A DNA stretch of 64,000 nt, taken from assembly GCA_029577135.1 (NCBI GenBank), contig JARQPW010000005.1:1-64000 (forward strand), in the 5' to 3' direction. A program made the position numbers and the translations under genes. The DNA is from Acidimicrobiales bacterium (GTDB lineage Bacteria; Actinomycetota; Acidimicrobiia; Acidimicrobiales; MedAcidi-G1). Within the stretch, counting starts at the first letter, position 1. Every line of letters starts with the position of its first letter. The notes under the pieces are model-generated. The model worked only from the letters and a program-made list of their open reading frames with translations, searched no databases and was not told where the DNA came from. Shown in pieces: positions 10,395-18,830 of this stretch.

Positions 10395-11744
10395 CTAGAA
10401 CAGCGACAGGTAGGTGTCGAGCTCCGCCGAGGTCACCTGGTCGGTGATGGTGCGGAATTCGTCGCGCTTGATCCGGGCGAAGTAGTCCACGTAGTCGCCG
10501 TCCCGGCCGGTGCCGAGGGCGGCACGCAGCACGTCGTCGGCCACCAACTTGTCGGCAGCGTGCAGCAGCGTCGGCGGCAGGGCCTCGATGCCCCGCGCGG
10601 CGATCTCGTCGAGCGGCAGCGTGTAGAGGTTGTCCATGTTGGGGTCACCCGGGTCGAGCCCACGTGACACGCCGTCGAGGCCGGCGCCCAGCAGAGCGGC
10701 GAATGACAGGTACGGGTTCGCGGCACCGTCGGGGACGCGCAATTCGAAGCGGCCACCCTCGGGCACCCGGATCATCTGGGTCCGGTTGTTGCCGCCGTAC
10801 ACGGCGTAGGCGGGTGCCCAGGTGGCGCCGGAGTCGGGCGGGCCGACGCCGATGCGCTTGTACGAGTTCACGGTCGGGCAGAGGATCGCCGTGAGCGCCT
10901 GGGCGTGGTCGAGCACGCCGCCGAGGAACTGGTAGGCGAGCTCGCTGAGCCCGAGCCCGCGGGGGTCGTCGTCGGTTTCGAACAGCGGTTCGTCGCCGTC
11001 GGCCGACCAGAGGCTGACGTGCATGTGGAGCCCGTTGCCGGTCTTGTCGGCGAACGGTTTCGGCATGAACGTGGCGTACAGTCCCTGTCGGCGGGCCAGC
11101 GTGTGCATCATCAGCCGCAGCAGGATGAGTCGGTCGGCTGTGGTGAGGGCGTCCGAGTACTGGAAGTTCTGTTCGAACTGGCCGTTGGCGTCCTCGTGGT
11201 CGTTGGCGTAGTTGCCCCAACCCATGGCGTCCATGTGGCGCGACACGGTCGTGAGGTGGTCGAGCATGGACGTGAGCCCGCGGGCGTCGTAGCAGGGGAG
11301 CTTCGAGGTGTCCCGCTCGTCGGCCGGGCGAAACGAGCCGTCGTCGTTGCGGTGCAGCATCGAGTACTCGGCCTCCACGCCTGCCTTGAGCACGAGGTTC
11401 TGCTCGGCTGCCCGGGCGACCGCCCGCTTGAGGATCACCCGTGGCGCGTACGGCCACTCCTCGCCCTCGACCGTGGCGTCGCACTGAATCGCCGCCACGT
11501 TCGGCTGCCACGGCAGCACCGTGTACGAGGCCGGGTCGGGCAACGCCATGATGTCCGGGTCGGCGGGCGTCTGGCTGATGGGCCCGGCGGCGAACCCGGC
11601 GAATCCGGCGCCGACCTCGAGCAGGTCGTCGATCGCCGTCACCGGCACCAGCTTGGCGCACGGCTTGCCGTGCATCTCCACGAACATGGCGTAGATGAAC
11701 TCGACGCCGTCGTCGGCGATGCGTGCCTTGAGTTCTTCGGTCAC
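10395..11744 (-). CDS. Glutamine-synthetase-family ligase (GlnT/type III-annotated, 449 aa)
   Basis: The fold catalyses ATP-dependent gamma-glutamyl-amine formation. Motifs: beta-grasp FVEMHGKPCAKLVP at 21-34, metal-binding GVEAEYSML near 136, glutamate/metal loop GNGLHMHVSLW near 250, ATP loop PTVNSYKRIG near 310, and RFELRVPDGAANPYL near 365. The adenylylation Tyr region of GlnA-I is not evident. At 449 residues it fits GlnT or the GlnA2-4-type gamma-glutamylamine ligases, not hexadecameric housekeeping GS. GTG 11744 has an AGGGGGAA ribosome site. It starts 27 bp after the ROK kinase gene, suggesting one transcript with the ABC importer. An amine-conjugating catabolic role is an inference from this context; plain nitrogen assimilation is the alternative. 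Confidence 0.85.
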   Translation of the reverse strand: MTEELKARIADDGVEFIYAMFVEMHGKPCAKLVPVTAIDDLLEVGAGFAGFAAGPISQTPADPDIMALPDPASYTVLPWQPNVAAIQCDATVEGEEWPYAPRVILKRAVARAAEQNLVLKAGVEAEYSMLHRNDDGSFRPADERDTSKLPCYDARGLTSMLDHLTTVSRHMDAMGWGNYANDHEDANGQFEQNFQYSDALTTADRLILLRLMMHTLARRQGLYATFMPKPFADKTGNGLHMHVSLWSADGDEPLFETDDDPRGLGLSELAYQFLGGVLDHAQALTAILCPTVNSYKRIGVGPPDSGATWAPAYAVYGGNNRTQMIRVPEGGRFELRVPDGAANPYLSFAALLGAGLDGVSRGLDPGDPNMDNLYTLPLDEIAARGIEALPPTLLHAADKLVADDVLRAALGTGRDGDYVDYFARIKRDEFRTITDQVTSAELDTYLSLF

Positions 11745-11771
11745 GATGCGTTCCCCCTTCGTCGGGCGTCG

Positions 11772-12758
11772 CTACCCGGGTGCGAATCGTGGCACATGCG
11801 GCGAGCGCTCGTCACCAGCGGGATCAGCCCTCCCCGCGGCGGCCAGCAGGGCGGCGCCGAGGGCTCCGGCGTCGTCTCCCAACTCGGCCAGTCGGACCTC
11901 GACGGCCGGCCGATACTCGGCGCCTGGCAACCGGTCGCCCAGGTGGCCGTCGATGCCCGCCCGCAACGACTCACCGATGTCGGCGAGTCCGCCGCCGATG
12001 ACGATGCGCCCGAGGTCGAGGATGAGCACCAGGTTGGCCACGCCACGGGCGACTTCCCGGCAGAAACCGTCGAAGACCGAGGCGGCGTCGGCATCGCCCT
12101 CGGCAAGCGCCGCAGCCACGTGGTGGCCGGTGACGTCATCGGCCGAACCGGCCAGCTCGAGGGCACGGTCGAAGCGGCCCGTCCCGGCGGCCTCTCGGCC
12201 CATGCGGCCCAGCGCCGACCCCGAGGCGAAGTATTCCCACGGGCCCTGCTGCCCCGTGATGTGCGTGGGGCCGTGGGCGTCGACGACCGTGTGGCCCGCC
12301 TCGCCGGCGAAGCCGTGCGCCCCCTCGAGCAGGCGGCCGTCCAGCACGAACCCGGTCCCGATACCGGTCCCGAGCGTGACGAGGCCGAAGTGGTCGCTGC
12401 CCCGGCCGGCGCCCAGGAGGGCCTCGGCCCAGGTTGCCGCAGTGGCGTCGTTGACGACCGTGACTGGCACGCCGACGACCCCCTCGAGCTCGGAACCGAT
12501 CGAAAAACCGAGCAGGTTGGGCAGGTTCGGGGAGTAGAACAGCGTCCCGGTTCGGTCAGTCAGCCCGGCGATGCCGAGCCCAACGGCGTCGACCGTCCCC
12601 TCGACGCGCAACTCGTCGACCATTCCGACGATGCCGCGTACCAGTGCCTGTCCGTCGCCGGCGCTCGACGACCGACGCCTTCCGAGCACCCCTCCCGTGG
12701 CGGAGTCGACCAGCAGCGCCCGGGCGTTGGTTCCCCCGACGTCGATGCCGACGATCAC
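11772..12758 (-). CDS. ROK-family sugar kinase with a degenerate zinc motif
   Basis: A 328-residue ROK protein. The phosphate-binding N-terminus is MIVGIDVGGTNARALLVD, with VGLGIAGLTDR near 70, VNDATAATWAEA near 110 (catalytic Asp) and GTGIGTGFVLDG near 138, then EAGHTVVDA near 160. The expected ROK zinc signature CxCGxxGCxE is replaced by HITGQQGPWE, so all three metal cysteines are gone while the Gly and Glu positions remain. The protein is therefore a kinase-like ROK member, not a DNA-binding repressor (no N-terminal HTH), with altered structure near the sugar site. GTG 12758 overlaps the end of the upstream permease gene by 4 bp. Substrate unknown; it may act on whatever the importer brings in. 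Confidence 0.8.
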   Translation of the reverse strand: MIVGIDVGGTNARALLVDSATGGVLGRRRSSSAGDGQALVRGIVGMVDELRVEGTVDAVGLGIAGLTDRTGTLFYSPNLPNLLGFSIGSELEGVVGVPVTVVNDATAATWAEALLGAGRGSDHFGLVTLGTGIGTGFVLDGRLLEGAHGFAGEAGHTVVDAHGPTHITGQQGPWEYFASGSALGRMGREAAGTGRFDRALELAGSADDVTGHHVAAALAEGDADAASVFDGFCREVARGVANLVLILDLGRIVIGGGLADIGESLRAGIDGHLGDRLPGAEYRPAVEVRLAELGDDAGALGAALLAAAGRADPAGDERSPHVPRFAPG

Positions 12759-13648
12759 CGTCGGAACCCGGTCAGGTCGGCCAGGGCCTCGGCATTGCGG
12801 TCGGCGTCGAGATCGGGTCCGCTGGTGCGTGCGGCGCCGGCGATGATCCGTCGGCGCACGGTCGCCGACATCGTGTCGATCGTGAGCACTACCAGAACCG
12901 TGATACCGAGCACGGCCCCGACGGCCGGGAAGTTGCGGAACATGAGCTGCGACACAAGCTCGGCGCCGACTCCGCCAGCGCCGATCATGCCGAGAACCGC
13001 TGAGGCACGCACGTTGATCTCGAAGCGGAACAGCCAGAACGAGGCAACGATCGGCATGATCTGGGGCAGGATGCCCCACCGCATCCCGGACACCCAGCGC
13101 CCACCAGTCGCCTCGATCGCCTCGAGCGGGCCGGTGTCGACGCCCTCGATCGCCTCGGTGGCCCACTTCCCGAGGGTGCCCACCGAGTGCAGGCCGATCG
13201 CGAGGGTGCCGGCCCACGGGCCGAGGCCGGTGATCGGAATGAAGATCACGGCGACGATGAGCTCGGGTACGGCCCGGATGGCGTTGAACAACTGGCGCAC
13301 CGGAATCCTGATCCAGCGAGGAGCCACGTTGGTGGCGGCGAGGAACGCCAGTGGCAGCGAGAGGATCGCTCCGATGATCGTGCCGATCCAGGCGATGTAG
13401 ACCGACTCGAACACCTTGCCGACGACTCCCCGGTCGAGCGCCTCGTCCATCGCCGGTGGCCAGAGCTGCTTGAAGATGTCCCAGACATCGGCTGGTGCTC
13501 CCAGCACCCGGGCAAGTGTGATGTCGAGGCCGGTCAGCGACCACGCGCCGCCGATGACGAGGGCGAGGGCGATGAGGGCCCGTCGGCGCCGGACGCCGGT
13601 GGGTGGGGAGGGCCGGGGAACTGTTGAGGGAGTGTGCGTCGCTGTCAT
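12755..13648 (-). CDS. phnE: PhnE-type ABC transporter permease (second copy)
   Basis: A 297-residue inner-membrane permease of a phosphonate-type ABC importer. It begins with a short cytoplasmic tail, one transmembrane helix (ALIALALVIGGAWSL) and, from about residue 85, the binding-protein-dependent permease domain. The EAA loop is EAIEATGGRWVSGMRWGILPQIMP near 195-218, and INVRASAVLGMIGAGGVG is the conserved phosphonate-permease segment. ATG 13648 lies 1 bp after the stop of the first permease, and its end overlaps the ROK gene. Together the two PhnE proteins would form the heterodimeric channel. Confidence 0.88.
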   Translation of the reverse strand: MTATHTPSTVPRPSPPTGVRRRRALIALALVIGGAWSLTGLDITLARVLGAPADVWDIFKQLWPPAMDEALDRGVVGKVFESVYIAWIGTIIGAILSLPLAFLAATNVAPRWIRIPVRQLFNAIRAVPELIVAVIFIPITGLGPWAGTLAIGLHSVGTLGKWATEAIEGVDTGPLEAIEATGGRWVSGMRWGILPQIMPIVASFWLFRFEINVRASAVLGMIGAGGVGAELVSQLMFRNFPAVGAVLGITVLVVLTIDTMSATVRRRIIAGAARTSGPDLDADRNAEALADLTGFRR

Positions 13649-13649
13649 G

Positions 13650-14444
13650 TCACACCAGCCGCTTTCGAATCGCCACGCTGACCTGCTCGATGACGAACAC
13701 GACCACGAAGACGATGATGAGCATGCCCAGCACCCGGTCGAATCGGAAGAACTGCCGCTGGGCCTCGAGTACCCGGCCGATGCCGCCGGCGCCGACGAGC
13801 CCCAGGACGATCGATGCCCGGATGTTGAGTTCGAACACGTAGAGGGCGTACGCCACGTACTCGGGAAGCACCGTGGGGAGCACGCCGATTCGGATCGCCG
13901 GCAGGTGCCGGGAGCCCGTGGCTCGGGCGGCCTCGAGCGGGCGCGGGTCGGCGTTGTCGATCGTCTCACTGAACAACTTCACCATCACGGCCAGCGAGAA
14001 GACGCTCAGGGCCCAGGTGCCGGCGAAGGCGCCGATTCCGACCGCGGTGACGAGCAACTTGGCCCAGAACAGGTCGGGGACGGCCCGCACCACGTTCATC
14101 ACGGACCGGGTCACCAGGTAGGTGGGCCGGTTGGGTGTGGTAAGGCGCGACATGGCGAACGAGATCGGCAGGGCCAGGCCACAACCGATGATCGTCGCGA
14201 GGATGGCGATCTGGAATGTCTCGACGAATGGGTCGATCACGTTGGAACGGTCGAGGACCCAGTCCCACGGGACCGGCCAGAACTTCTCCCAGAGCGGGTT
14301 TTTCCACACTTCCCAGAAGGTCGAAATGGCGAATTTGACTTCTCTGGCGGCGAAGACGGTGAACGCGAGGAGCCCGGCGGTGATGCCGAGCGTGCGCAGG
14401 CGGGGCCGGGGGCGAACCGGCCGGGCAATACCGCCTTCACTCAC
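13650..14444 (-). CDS. phnE: PhnE-type ABC transporter permease (first copy)
   Basis: A 264-residue permease. Predicted helices include LGITAGLLAFTVFAA near the N-terminus and IAILATIIGCGLALPISF near 82. The EAA loop is EAARATGSRHLPAIRIGVLPTVLP near 169-192, followed by ELNIRASIVLGLVGAGGIG, the same signature as in the second copy. The start ATG overlaps the PhnC stop (ATGA), and the end abuts the second permease. Roughly 30% alike in the shared core by eye, so the two copies are old paralogues, not a recent duplication. Confidence 0.88.
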   Translation of the reverse strand: MSEGGIARPVRPRPRLRTLGITAGLLAFTVFAAREVKFAISTFWEVWKNPLWEKFWPVPWDWVLDRSNVIDPFVETFQIAILATIIGCGLALPISFAMSRLTTPNRPTYLVTRSVMNVVRAVPDLFWAKLLVTAVGIGAFAGTWALSVFSLAVMVKLFSETIDNADPRPLEAARATGSRHLPAIRIGVLPTVLPEYVAYALYVFELNIRASIVLGLVGAGGIGRVLEAQRQFFRFDRVLGMLIIVFVVVFVIEQVSVAIRKRLV

Positions 14445-15220
14445 GTCAGGTCGTCCTCGGCGCCCACCAGGTCGTCGTCGCGGATCGCCCGGCCGTAGAT
14501 CTCCATGAAGGTGTCGTCGTCGACGTCGGCGATATCGCCGTCAAAGACCAACACGCCGTCGCGGAGCCCGACCAGGCGGCTGCCGAACTCTCGGGCCAGG
14601 TCGAGGTAGTGCAGGTTGACGATCGTGGTGATCCCGAGGTCCCGGTTTATGCGTTGGAGGTCGCTCATCACCTGTCGGCTGGTGACCGGGTCGAGCGAGG
14701 CAACCGGTTCGTCTGCCAGCATCACAGATGGTTCCTGGACGAGCGCCCGGGCGATGCCGACCCGCTGCTGTTGGCCACCTGAGAGGTTCGAGGCCCGGAC
14801 ATAGGCCTTCTCGACGATGCCGACCCGTTCGAGGGCCTGCATCGCCCGCTCCCTGTCATCGGCCGGCCAGAGCCCGAGAGTGGAACGCCAGGCGGGAACG
14901 GTGCCGAGCCGGCCCATGAGGACGTTGTTCAACACCGAGGTGCGGTTCACCAGATTGAAGGTCTGGAAGATCATCCCGATCTGTGATCGGAGAGTACGCA
15001 GTTCGGCGGCCGAGGCGCCGACGACCTCGGTGTCGTCGACGGTGATGGAACCACCGGTGGCAGGAACCAGTCCGTTCAAGGCACGCAACAGGGTGGACTT
15101 GCCGGCGCCGGACAACCCGACGATGACGATGAATTCGCCGTCCTCGATTGTCAGGTCCAGGCCGCGCAGTGCCTGTACGCCCCCTCGGTAGGTGACCGAG
15201 ACATCCTCGAACCGGATCAT
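14441..15220 (-). CDS. phnC: Phosphonate-type ABC transporter ATP-binding protein
   Basis: A 259-residue ATPase that would drive the two PhnE permeases. Walker A GLSGAGKST is at residues 34-42, Q-loop IGMIFQTFNLV near 80-90, signature LSGGQQQRVGIARAL near 142-156 and Walker B VMLADEPVASLDP near 161-173. The C-terminal LHYLDLAREFGSRLVGLRDG supplies the switch His. Phosphonate, phosphite or another organophosphorus anion is the family's usual cargo. ATG 15220 follows a TACCCT hexamer by 6 nt, so phnC has its own leaderless promoter behind the hairpin that follows the damaged phnD. Confidence 0.9.
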   Translation of the reverse strand: MIRFEDVSVTYRGGVQALRGLDLTIEDGEFIVIVGLSGAGKSTLLRALNGLVPATGGSITVDDTEVVGASAAELRTLRSQIGMIFQTFNLVNRTSVLNNVLMGRLGTVPAWRSTLGLWPADDRERAMQALERVGIVEKAYVRASNLSGGQQQRVGIARALVQEPSVMLADEPVASLDPVTSRQVMSDLQRINRDLGITTIVNLHYLDLAREFGSRLVGLRDGVLVFDGDIADVDDDTFMEIYGRAIRDDDLVGAEDDLT

Positions 15221-15226
15221 TCGGAC

Positions 15227-15232
15227 AGGGTA
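15227..15232 (-). promoter_or_regulatory. -10 element TACCCT before phnC
   Basis: TACCCT on the minus strand ends 6 nt before ATG 15220 with no Shine-Dalgarno sequence. It would give expression of phnC-phnE-phnE-ROK-glnA independent of phnD. Confidence 0.45.
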
Positions 15233-15260
15233 GGCGCAGACGTCGGATAGGCAACACTGG

Positions 15261-15287
15261 GCCGGCGCCCCCTGGAGGGACGCCGGC
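15261..15287 (-). terminator. Stem-loop between phnD and phnC
   Basis: GCCGGCG (15261-15267) pairs with CGCCGGC (15281-15287), and inner CCC/GGG bases can extend the stem. There is no U-tract. Such hairpins after binding-protein genes of ABC operons commonly stabilise the upstream mRNA end and reduce read-through; partial termination is inferred. Confidence 0.5.
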
Positions 15288-15306
15288 GCGCTGGAACGAG
15301 GTCTGG

Positions 15307-15698
15307 TCAGCCCGGTGGCTCGGTGATGCCGAGCGCCTTGGCGGCGTCCCGGACGATGTCGAACTCCGAGTCGGTGGTCCGGCGAACGCTCGTCCAGTCG
15401 TAGATCTCGTCGAACATCGCCTCGCCTTCGTCGGTCTCGAGATGGGCGTCGATGACGGCCTTGAGGTCGTCCGGGATTTCCGTGCGAACCGCCACGATGT
15501 CGTTGGGGATCTCGCCGGTGATGTTGAACACGATCACCTTGTCGCCCACGTCGGGGTTCGTCTTACGGATCGAGTGGCGGACGTCGTCGTAGGAGAGGCC
15601 GATATCGGCATCGCCCTGGTACCGCCGTCGTCGCTGCCACAGGCTCCTGTTATGAGGAGTAGCGCGAAAAATGCCATCAACGGTCGTAGGAATTTCAT
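15307..15698 (-). pseudogene. phnD: phnD-type substrate-binding lipoprotein gene with internal deletion
   Basis: Two pieces of a PhnD-like binding protein meet out of frame near 15621. The first, from ATG 15698 with an upstream GAGGGG ribosome site, encodes a lipoprotein signal peptide (MKFLRPLMAFFALLLITGAC, then GSDDGG). The second encodes a C-terminal periplasmic-binding segment (YQGDADIGLSYDDVRHSIRK ... VFNITGEIPNDIVAVRT ... ITEPPG) ending at 15307. Normal proteins are about 300 residues; roughly the middle half is absent, including most of the ligand site. The N-terminal piece has lower-GC codons than the rest (AAA, CTA, TTT, ATA). Either a deletion/recombination event or an assembly misjoin; as written, the importer lacks its binding protein. 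Confidence 0.8.
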
Positions 15699-15803
15699 GG
15701 AACCCACCCCTCAACTTCGCTGTCGCTAACGCCGCGAACGAAGCCCACGCCGGGGCGCTCTCGCCACTGCGCATCGGTTGGAGCCGTTGGAAGGCGAAGC
15801 CCC

Positions 15804-15809
15804 TAGGGT
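15804..15809 (+). promoter_or_regulatory. -10 element TAGGGT before the DMT permease
   Basis: TAGGGT ends 8 nt before ATG 15818, with no ribosome-binding sequence in between. Confidence 0.45.
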
Positions 15810-15817
15810 GCGCGGCC

Positions 15818-16702
15818 ATGGTGGCCACTGAGGAACGGAGCGGGCTGGGACGCCTTTCGGCGTTGGCCGGGGTGTCGTGCTGGTCGGCGGGCAACATCAT
15901 GGTGGCCCGCTTCGACATGCCGGGGCTGTGGATCGGGTTCTGGCGGCTCACGATCGGGGCGGTGATCTACGGCCTGGCCCTCCACCTGGGCGGCCGCCGC
16001 ATCAGCCTCGCCACCCTGCGCCTGGTGGCGCCGGCGGCGATCGTCATCGCCTGCGAGATCGGCATCTTCTTCACCGCCCTGCGCACCACCACGGTCGCCA
16101 ACGCCACGATCATCGGCGCCCTCCAACCGATCGTCCTCCTGGCCGTGGCCTCCCGCCGCTACCGGGAGTCGGTCACCGCCTGGTTGGTCGGAACCACCCT
16201 GGTGGCCGTTGCCGGGATCGCCCTCGTGGTACAGGGCTCCTCGTCACAGTCGGACTGGAGCCTGCACGGCGACGTCCTGGCCTTCGTCGCCATGTTCTTC
16301 TTCTCGGCCTACTTCGTGCTCGTGAAGGAGATCCGGCACAGGGTCGACACCTTCACGCTCCAGACGGCCTCGATGGCGATCGGAGGCGTGGTGCTGTACC
16401 CGATGGCCGCCATCCACGCCGGCACACCCGCCGTTCCCTTCCCGACGTGGGGCCAGTGGGCCTGGCTCCTGGCACTTCTGGCGGTCCCCGGCACCGGCCA
16501 CTTCCTCATGAACTGGGCGCACCTGCACGTGTCGCTGAGCCTCACCGGCCTCCTCACGTTGGCCATCCCGGTGATCTCGGGGATCGGCGCCTGGTTCGCC
16601 CTCGACGAGCGGGTCACCCCGGTCCAGGGGTTCGGCATGGCCGTGGTGCTGGCGGTCCTGGTGGTCGTGATCGTCCGCGATGCCCGCCTCGCCCGGACGT
16701 GA
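15818..16702 (+). CDS. EamA/DMT-superfamily membrane transporter
   Basis: A 294-residue integral membrane protein with about ten hydrophobic helices arranged as two EamA repeats, each about 130 residues (first: ARFDMPGLWIGFWRLTIG ... GALQPIVLLAVASRRY; second: GDVLAFVAMFFFSAYFVLVKE ... LLTLAIPVISGIGAWFALDERV). The conserved repeat ends ALQPIVLLA and AIPVISGIGAWFALDE are typical of metabolite exporters. Cargo cannot be read from sequence. It is transcribed away from the phn region from its own leaderless promoter and is followed by a hairpin. Confidence 0.85.
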   Translation: MVATEERSGLGRLSALAGVSCWSAGNIMVARFDMPGLWIGFWRLTIGAVIYGLALHLGGRRISLATLRLVAPAAIVIACEIGIFFTALRTTTVANATIIGALQPIVLLAVASRRYRESVTAWLVGTTLVAVAGIALVVQGSSSQSDWSLHGDVLAFVAMFFFSAYFVLVKEIRHRVDTFTLQTASMAIGGVVLYPMAAIHAGTPAVPFPTWGQWAWLLALLAVPGTGHFLMNWAHLHVSLSLTGLLTLAIPVISGIGAWFALDERVTPVQGFGMAVVLAVLVVVIVRDARLART

Positions 16703-16720
16703 CGCCGGCCCTTCCGGCGT
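16702..16720 (+). terminator. Stem-loop after the DMT permease gene
   Basis: ACGCCGG (16702-16708) and CCGGCGT (16714-16720) form a perfect 7-bp stem with a CCCTT loop, starting at the stop codon. There is no U-tract, as is usual for actinobacterial terminators. Confidence 0.5.
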
Positions 16721-16768
16721 CTACGGTCGTGGCAAGACATTCAGTCCCTACACGGAGGCACACGAACC

Positions 16769-17065
16769 ATGAGCGTCGACGGAACCTGGAACGTCACGAT
16801 GCAGACCCCGATGGGAGCCCAGGCGGGCACCCTCACCTTCGTCACCGACGGTGGCACCCTCACCGGTGAGATGGGCGGCGCCCAAGGCAACCTCGCCCTC
16901 GAGGAGGGAACCTGCGATGGCAACGACCTGTCGTGGGTGGTCAACATGACCTCTCCCATGCCCATCAAGGTGGAGGCCACCGCCACGGTCGATGGCGACT
17001 CGATCAGCGGCGAGGCCAAGTTGGGCGCCTTCGGCACCGCCACCTTCGAGGGGAGCAGGGCCTGA
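16769..17065 (+). CDS. Small beta-rich protein, function unknown
   Basis: A 98-residue protein beginning MSVDGTWNVTMQTPMGAQAG. Alternating hydrophobic strands (GTLTFVTDGGTLTGEMGG, VEATATVDGDSISGEAKLG) suggest a small lipocalin-like or beta-barrel fold of the sort often annotated as a 'TWN' or lipocalin-like domain. There is no signal peptide. A GGAGG ribosome site lies 10 nt before ATG 16769. The stop overlaps the start of the YbjQ-like gene (TGATG), so the pair is cotranscribed. No function can be assigned. Confidence 0.75.
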   Translation: MSVDGTWNVTMQTPMGAQAGTLTFVTDGGTLTGEMGGAQGNLALEEGTCDGNDLSWVVNMTSPMPIKVEATATVDGDSISGEAKLGAFGTATFEGSRA

Positions 17066-17385
17066 TGGACGTCACCACGACCGACTCGCTGCCCGGTCGT
17101 CGGATCACCGCGGTGAAGGGCGTGGCGCTCGGCTCGACGGTCCGGTCGAAGAACATCGGCAAGGACATCGGTGCAGGCCTCAAGTCAATCATCGGTGGCG
17201 AGCTCAAGAACTATTCGGACATGCTCGTCGAAGCGCGGACCGAGGCGCTCTCCCGCATGGAGGCGAACGCCGCCGAACTCGGCGCCGACTCGGTGGTCAA
17301 CCTCCGGTTCATGACGTCGGCCGTTGCCGCCGGCGCCTCCGAGATCCTCGCCTACGCCACCGCTGTCACTACGGAGCCCGCCTGA
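17065..17385 (+). CDS. YbjQ/UPF0145-like family protein
   Basis: A 106-residue protein with the YbjQ/UPF0145 pattern: TDSLPGRRITAVKGVALGST near the N-terminus, KDIGAGLKSIIGGELKNYSDM in the middle, and AEARTEALSRMEANAAELGADSVVNLRF with the GAD(S/A)VVN segment near residue 78. Members are small pentameric proteins sometimes called heavy-metal-binding, but their role is not established. The start is set by the TGATG overlap with the preceding gene. Confidence 0.85.
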   Translation: MDVTTTDSLPGRRITAVKGVALGSTVRSKNIGKDIGAGLKSIIGGELKNYSDMLVEARTEALSRMEANAAELGADSVVNLRFMTSAVAAGASEILAYATAVTTEPA

Positions 17386-17428
17386 CCGACGGTGCGCCGC
17401 GTCGTGCTGGGCGACGGGTGCGCGGGGA

Positions 17429-18652
17429 TCAGCAGGTGATCGTAAGGGTCGCCGCCACGCCGGCGTGGTCGGCGGCCCACCAGAGGTCCTCGACCGGCTC
17501 GGACAATGGCCCGTCGGCCCAGTGCCGGGCGTCGTCCACGGCCACGCTGCAGCCGGATCCGGGCCGGAACAGGACGAAGTCGATGCGCTCGTCCATCGAC
17601 TGATCGGGGTCGTCGAGGCCGTCGAGGGGCGCCGGGCCGTCGACACAGCAGGTGCAGCCGATGCCGGTCACCGGATCACACTCCGGGAGGCCGGCGGCCA
17701 GGTACGCATCGGCGAAGCCGGCATCGGTGAGCGTGGTGATCCGGGAATCGTCGATCGGGGCGTTGAGGTCCCCGACCACGAACTGCAGGACGGCATCGTC
17801 GGCAAGGGGTTCGAGGATCGCCAGCGTCTGGCGGGGGTGGCAGTCCCCGAAGTCGTCGCCGTCGGCGCAGGTGGTGGTGCATCCGAACGTGCCCAACTCG
17901 CATTCGAGGTTGAAGCTGCTGCTGGCGTAGTGGGTGGCGAAAACGTCGACCGGCCCGAGGTCGGTTGCCAGGCGGGCCCGGTGCGCCGACCAGATCGGGG
18001 TGCCGGCCAACTCGACGTAGGCGTGGTCAAGCACCGGGAGCGTCGTCAGGATCATCTCCTGGTCGGGAAGGTCGCGGTTGTCGACCAGCAGTTCGTAGCC
18101 GCCGCCGCAGAGGTCGCCCAGCATCGTCGGCACCAGTTCCTGCTGACGGGGGCTGATCTCCTGGAACGCCACGACATCGGGGCAGTCGAGGTCGTCCTCG
18201 AGTAGCCCCCAGAGCAGGCCCATGCGGGCCGGGGCACGGCACTGGTCGGTCTCGGCCGCACAGTCGCTGGCCACCTCGAGCCCATGCAGCAGGTTGATCG
18301 TCGCCACGTCGAAGGCGGTGGTCGGCGGCTCGGTGGTCGTGGTGGTCGTGGTGGTCGTGGTGGTCGTCGTGGTCGTGGTGGTCGTCGTGGTGGGCGCGAC
18401 CGTGGTCGTGGTGGTCGTGGTGGTCGTGGTGGTGGGCGCGACCGTGGTCGTGGTGGTGGGCGCGACCGTGGTCGTGGTGGTCGTGGTGGTGGGCGCGACC
18501 GTGGTCGTGGTGGTGGGCGCGACCGTGGTTGTGGGCGCGACCGTCGTCGTGGTGGAGGTCGTGGACGGAACCGAAGTGGGCGCGACCGACGATCCACCGC
18601 CCGAGCAGGCACCCGACACCAGAGCGACCAGGATCAGCATCGAGCACCGCAT
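17429..18652 (-). CDS. Secreted lipoprotein endonuclease/exonuclease/phosphatase-fold protein on a threonine-rich stalk
   Basis: A 407-residue protein. The signal peptide MRCSMLILVALVSGAC gives a lipid Cys at residue 16, followed by a Thr/Val/Ala/Pro stalk to about residue 108. The rest is a DNase I-like (EEP) domain: VATINLLHG near 115, catalytic FQEISP near 161, GDLNAPIDDSR near 281 and a C-terminal DHAGV (catalytic Asp-His pair). Cys pairs (CELGTFGCTTTC; CDPVTGIGCTCC) suggest disulfides outside the membrane. Possible substrates are DNA, RNA, sphingomyelin or inositol phosphates. Its stalk resembles that of the hydrolase at 9038-10381, though on the opposite strand. ATG 18652 gives the best signal peptide. 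Confidence 0.85.
   Translation of the reverse strand: MRCSMLILVALVSGACSGGGSSVAPTSVPSTTSTTTTVAPTTTVAPTTTTTVAPTTTTTTTTVAPTTTTTVAPTTTTTTTTTTTVAPTTTTTTTTTTTTTTTTTTTTEPPTTAFDVATINLLHGLEVASDCAAETDQCRAPARMGLLWGLLEDDLDCPDVVAFQEISPRQQELVPTMLGDLCGGGYELLVDNRDLPDQEMILTTLPVLDHAYVELAGTPIWSAHRARLATDLGPVDVFATHYASSSFNLECELGTFGCTTTCADGDDFGDCHPRQTLAILEPLADDAVLQFVVGDLNAPIDDSRITTLTDAGFADAYLAAGLPECDPVTGIGCTCCVDGPAPLDGLDDPDQSMDERIDFVLFRPGSGCSVAVDDARHWADGPLSEPVEDLWWAADHAGVAATLTITC
18333..18560 (-). repeat. Simple-sequence tract coding the threonine-rich stalk
   Basis: On the plus strand this is GTGGTCGTGGTGG-type repetition broken by GGGCGCGACC (coding VAPT). The period is a mix of 3, 9 and longer units, and the tract codes the Thr-rich linker of the EEP lipoprotein. 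The opposite reading, poly-Val, is not a gene. Confidence 0.85.
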
Positions 18653-18830
18653 GCCGCGACGATAGTGCCGGTCCCCCGGCAGGAAGGACCCCGGAGCGTC
18701 ACCGCGCCATCCGGGCTTCGCACCGGTTATGCATCGGGCCCGCACCTGTGTGCCCGTTAGCATCGGCGCAGCGGCCGTTTCCCGGGCGCGACCCTTCGAG
18801 CCCTGTATTCCCCGACCCCCCGGTATCCCC

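Follow-up and report, generated by a model that had tools for sequence, protein, structure and literature searches.

A 667-bp deletion that probably inactivated the binding-protein gene phnD beside intact phnC, phnE and phnE genes in an Acidimicrobiales bacterium

A 667-bp gap separates the phnD remnants from their intact relatives

From comparison with related genomes, the phnD gene of an Acidimicrobiales bacterium is very probably a pseudogene, created by one 667-bp deletion and then subject to decay, which would leave a phnCDE-type importer without its own binding protein. The window, which is the whole 64,000-nucleotide stretch of DNA that was analysed, corresponds to contig C45 of a metagenome-assembled genome (MAG; G000 hereafter) of 2.35 Mb in 68 contigs with 93% completeness. 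The named relatives are MAGs labelled Acidimicrobiales or "Candidatus Microthrix", and several are presumably marine, going by isolate name.

Two remnants of phnD are found in the window, both on the minus strand. The 5′ remnant (15622-15698) encodes a lipoprotein signal peptide that begins at 15698 (MKFLRPLMAFFALLLITGACGSDDGG), its Cys lipobox and the first linker residues; it aligns with residues 1 through 26 or 29 of the intact PhnD proteins of G005, G002 and G001 and is collinear with the last two, and its frame ends after 54 amino acids at a stop near 15534. The 3′ remnant (15307-15621) encodes the C-terminal ~104 residues in a different frame, as evident by a match of 15621-15307 to positions 154-241 of the 242-position Phosphonate-bd model in Pfam (PF12974; E 6e-9, above the curated cut-off) and by alignment with 27 relatives. 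In a search of the G000 genome with an intact PhnD of another genus member, only residues 1-29 (15698-15612) and 249-356 (15621-15310) of the query find a match. The Pfam match and this genome search confirm an earlier sequence-only reading of the locus, which had placed the signal peptide and the PhnD C-terminus in different frames, meeting at about 15621 inside an otherwise intact phnC-phnE-phnE operon. A functional PhnD holds two lobes in one exported chain, and the window copy, with its remnants in different frames, does not. The intact PhnD of the genus matches both lobes of the PhnD/PtxB/HtxB-type phosphonate or phosphite binding proteins (PF12974; PDB 5lv1, 5o2j, 5jvb, 3p7i), whereas the window retains the C-terminal match only, out of frame, and residues ~27-248 are gone.

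The nature of the lesion is evident from the relatives. A BLASTN comparison of window positions 11000-17400 with G002 yields two collinear blocks, 11000-15621 (86.7% identical) and 15622-17400 (89.7%), and in G002 these flanks of 4.6 kb and 1.8 kb are kept apart by exactly 667 bp (6473/7141 of locus L036). An identical surplus at the 15621/15622 junction is present in G001 (7803/7135 of L037), which like G002 belongs to the genus of the window and whose assembly is independent of that of G002. The missing DNA amounts to ~222 codons plus one base (667 = 3 x 222 + 1), and because 667 is not divisible by 3 the frame changes at the junction. In G002, G001 and G005 the extra DNA completes a 356-amino-acid PhnD, an intact orthologue at the same place, which in G002 matches PF12974 over its whole length. 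Nearly all relatives that carry this phnC have an intact PhnD of 351 to 356 amino acids, or a longer form, at the equivalent position.

The genes around the junction are otherwise preserved. Downstream on the minus strand lie phnC (14441-15220), encoding an intact ABC ATPase that is 97% identical in protein sequence to that of G004, and two phnE-type permease genes (13650-14444 and 12755 to ~13651) that are likewise intact. These are followed, in relatives also, by a gene at 11772-12758 (-) that is, from its N-terminal sequence, probably ROK-type sugar kinase-like. A divergent EamA-family transporter gene (15818-16702, +) adjoins phnD and has an equivalent neighbour in G002 and G001, and the order EamA, phnD, phnC, phnE, phnE, ROK-like gene is common to the window and G002. 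Beyond this region, window positions 17429-18669 (-) hold a lipoprotein-like open reading frame with a long threonine-rich linker (TTTTTVAPTTTT...), followed by a putative nuclease/phosphatase-type domain.

From these comparisons, we propose that one 667-bp deletion in the lineage of the window would have fused the linker that directly follows the lipobox to codon ~249 of 356 in a different frame. The regions of G005 that correspond to the two breakpoints (TTCCACGGC and TACAACGGC) form an imperfect short repeat, identical at 7 of 9 positions. Imperfect short repeats are a common setting for small deletions, and a short-repeat deletion is a plausible origin of the 667-bp loss. The N-terminal lobe would have been lost in this event, along with the greater part of the ligand site, and translation from the surviving start would produce only a 54-amino-acid lipopeptide and no binding protein.

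The remnant and its spacer carry further changes

Additional lesions are observed outside the junction. The C-terminal remnant has a 12-bp in-frame deletion that is not present in any of the 27 aligned relatives. Moreover, the remnant departs from the consensus at 6 of the 41 columns that are invariant in these relatives (A14V, R16H, A56V, a gap at Y58 that belongs to the 12-bp deletion, G79D and A86T), whereas each relative departs at one column at most. Two equally divergent sequences, L013 and L023, show 1 and 0 departures, respectively.

Rates of codon change are suggestive in the same direction. On the window branch, omega is 0.48 for the phnD remnant versus 0.20 for phnC, phnE and phnE combined, a contrast that involves too few changes to prove decay (bootstrap P 0.065; Fisher P 0.09; P 0.036 by a stricter codon count), and the corresponding phnD fragment in G004 also has a high omega of 0.59. 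These values point weakly toward relaxed constraint on the remnant.

The spacer between phnD and phnC (15221-15306, -) contains a strong hairpin. Five operons of the genus type conserve it, and paired changes occur at three positions of its outer stem. Several stem pairs are broken in the window alone. The hairpin, found here and in the spacers of L004-L008, is missing from the short phnD-phnC spacers of other genera, and it possibly serves as an mRNA-stabilising or attenuating element. The earlier proposal that phnC retained its own promoter found no support: a scan upstream of phnC for the sigma-70 consensus gave no match, and the genus-conserved hairpin occupies this region.

Alternative explanations for the junction

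The sequence-only reading had raised the possibility that the two halves of phnD differ in origin, or that distant contigs were misjoined at 15621, and had pointed to the lower GC content on the signal-peptide side. The composition was correctly noted (53% GC versus 64% on the C-terminal side), but its use as a hint of separate origins does not hold, because the contrast recurs in intact PhnD genes from the genus (56-61% versus 65-67%) and is therefore uninformative on origin. When each half was checked against the PhnD of related genomes, as had been suggested, both aligned to a single intact gene. Separate origins and a distant misjoin are excluded by the collinearity with G002 and G001 on both flanks (about 87% and 90% identity with G002), and the EamA gene adjoins phnD in relatives as well, within a conserved EamA-phnD-phnC-phnE-phnE order. 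We therefore regard either event as scarcely conceivable, and the junction appears from this comparison to be a local frame-breaking deletion.

A purely local assembly error is also unlikely, if less remote. According to this explanation, phnD is whole in the genome itself, and 667 bp were dropped during assembly or the assembler took up a minority variant, as could occur in a metagenome assembly with breakpoints that fall within a short imperfect repeat. However, with at most 7 of 9 bases in common, the repeat is much shorter than usual assembly word sizes. Furthermore, constraint on the C-terminal half would persist in an intact gene, and instead this half has acquired a second deletion and the six departures from invariant columns, while the hairpin has eroded too. 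Decay of this kind argues for a real pseudogene, such that the DNA of the cell would truly be in the deleted state.

It is very improbable that a shortened product is functional, for example a 214-amino-acid protein initiated at a GTG at 15951, or a frameshifted fusion to the signal peptide. The C-terminal frame is indeed open to ~15969, but the additional N-terminus would be antisense to the EamA gene and finds no match in intact PhnD, and the product would lack the N-terminal lobe of the PtxB and PhnD structures and looks decayed. An inactivating deletion with subsequent decay thus remains our preferred explanation, and the gap relative to collinear relatives, together with the state of the remnant, supports the earlier proposal that the binding protein of the importer was lost.

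An importer probably without its own binding protein

The loss of phnD is of an ordinary kind. Like other bacterial deletion pseudogenes, the window copy has one frame-breaking deletion and then more lesions; its only oddity compared with typical cases is that the partner genes are intact. The ATPase and both permeases expected of a phnCDE importer are present, in the order typical of such operons and of the relatives, the permeases are 93-95% identical to those of G004 in protein sequence, and omega for the three genes combined is 0.20 on the window branch versus 0.18 on the G004 branch. The transporter genes thus appear to be without sign of relaxation, although a recent loss of phnD would give the same picture.

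No other full PhnD is present in the G000 assembly, from which ~7% of the genome is missing, and plasmid records yielded only distant PhnD proteins. A Pfam search of G000 identified one further PhnD-like protein, on contig C21. This candidate was rejected as a replacement: it has no signal peptide, lies among unrelated genes and is present in four other members of the genus, three of which keep PhnD.

Possibly phnD was lost only recently, or a different binding protein supplies the importer. An importer in this condition could be heading for loss, or it could be served in trans. In G003, of the same genus, no copy of this phnC was found; either the system as a whole can be lost, or the gene sits in an unassembled part of that genome. 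The substrate of the lost protein could be phosphite or a phosphonate, as the solved structures nearest to the genus PhnD are PtxB and PhnD. Unlike phnCDE-type operons with an intact binding protein, the window operon has a broken one, and PhnJ of the C-P lyase was not found in the genus. The annotation should be corrected accordingly, in that a full PhnCDE importer should not be attributed to this genome. On a small scale, the locus is also a natural experiment on the survival of an importer after its binding protein is lost.

Binding domains fused into polyproteins

Less ordinary is the arrangement of binding domains in related genomes, where domains of different ABC importers, PhnD included, are concatenated in polyproteins and the modules differ between near-identical operons. 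In contigs C31 of G004 and C34 of G018, the operon PhnD has no signal peptide of its own and is fused behind other substrate-binding domains. The G004 fusion (L033 39-1904, +) is Bmp-PhnD and is cut by the contig end; that of G018 (L034 1637-6010, -) is Peripla_BP_6-OpuAC-Bmp-PhnD in a single frame of 1458 codons. From the PhnD module onward, L033 930-3540 and the reverse complement of L034 6233-8846 are 98.2% identical over 2614 bp. Upstream of this module there is no detectable DNA similarity, with unrelated modules in the same frame and a sharp swap at the linker. L034 is an 8.8-kb contig from another genus whose phn operon is ~98% identical to that of G004; G018 has its own copy on C16, and C34 represents either a recent transfer or a mis-binned contig.

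Across the family, single open frames of ~600 to 1460 codons join Peripla_BP_6, OpuAC, Bmp, SBP_bac_5, SBP_bac_3 and PhnD in an order that varies among genomes (L064, L066, L067, L068, L070, L071, L072, L076 and L077), with combinations that include Bmp-Bmp-SBP_bac_5, Peripla_BP_6-Bmp, OpuAC-Peripla_BP_6, Bmp-SBP_bac_3-OpuAC and OpuAC-OpuAC. A fusion that includes a beta-lactamase-type domain was seen once only (L078). A limited search of the open-access literature found no published description of such polyproteins.

It is conceivable, though we consider it a slim chance, that phnC-phnE-phnE is kept under selection and fed in trans, for example by a single module within a fused, multi-domain binding lipoprotein. 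PhnD would then be an exchangeable module. The left end of the window deletion falls in the linker at which the G004 and G018 contigs swap modules, and the deletion would be the trace of an exchange.

All genomes with fused binding proteins are MAGs, and many contigs end within fusions. G000 contigs also end inside binding-domain frames (Bmp, SBP_bac_5 and OpuAC-like), namely at the end of C1 (L061), both ends of C58 (L062) and the end of C14 (L063), and such frames are thus incompletely assembled in G000 also. A divergent OpuAC-OpuAC pair within a 195-kb contig (C2 of G033) argues that some fusions at least are real. Inside some open frames, a single binding domain is repeated as perfect tandem copies of 877 to 1017 bp, at L068 202-1218 (period 1011), L073 4681-5558 (period 885) and L087 110-986 (period 912), and short-read assembly may hide the true copy numbers.
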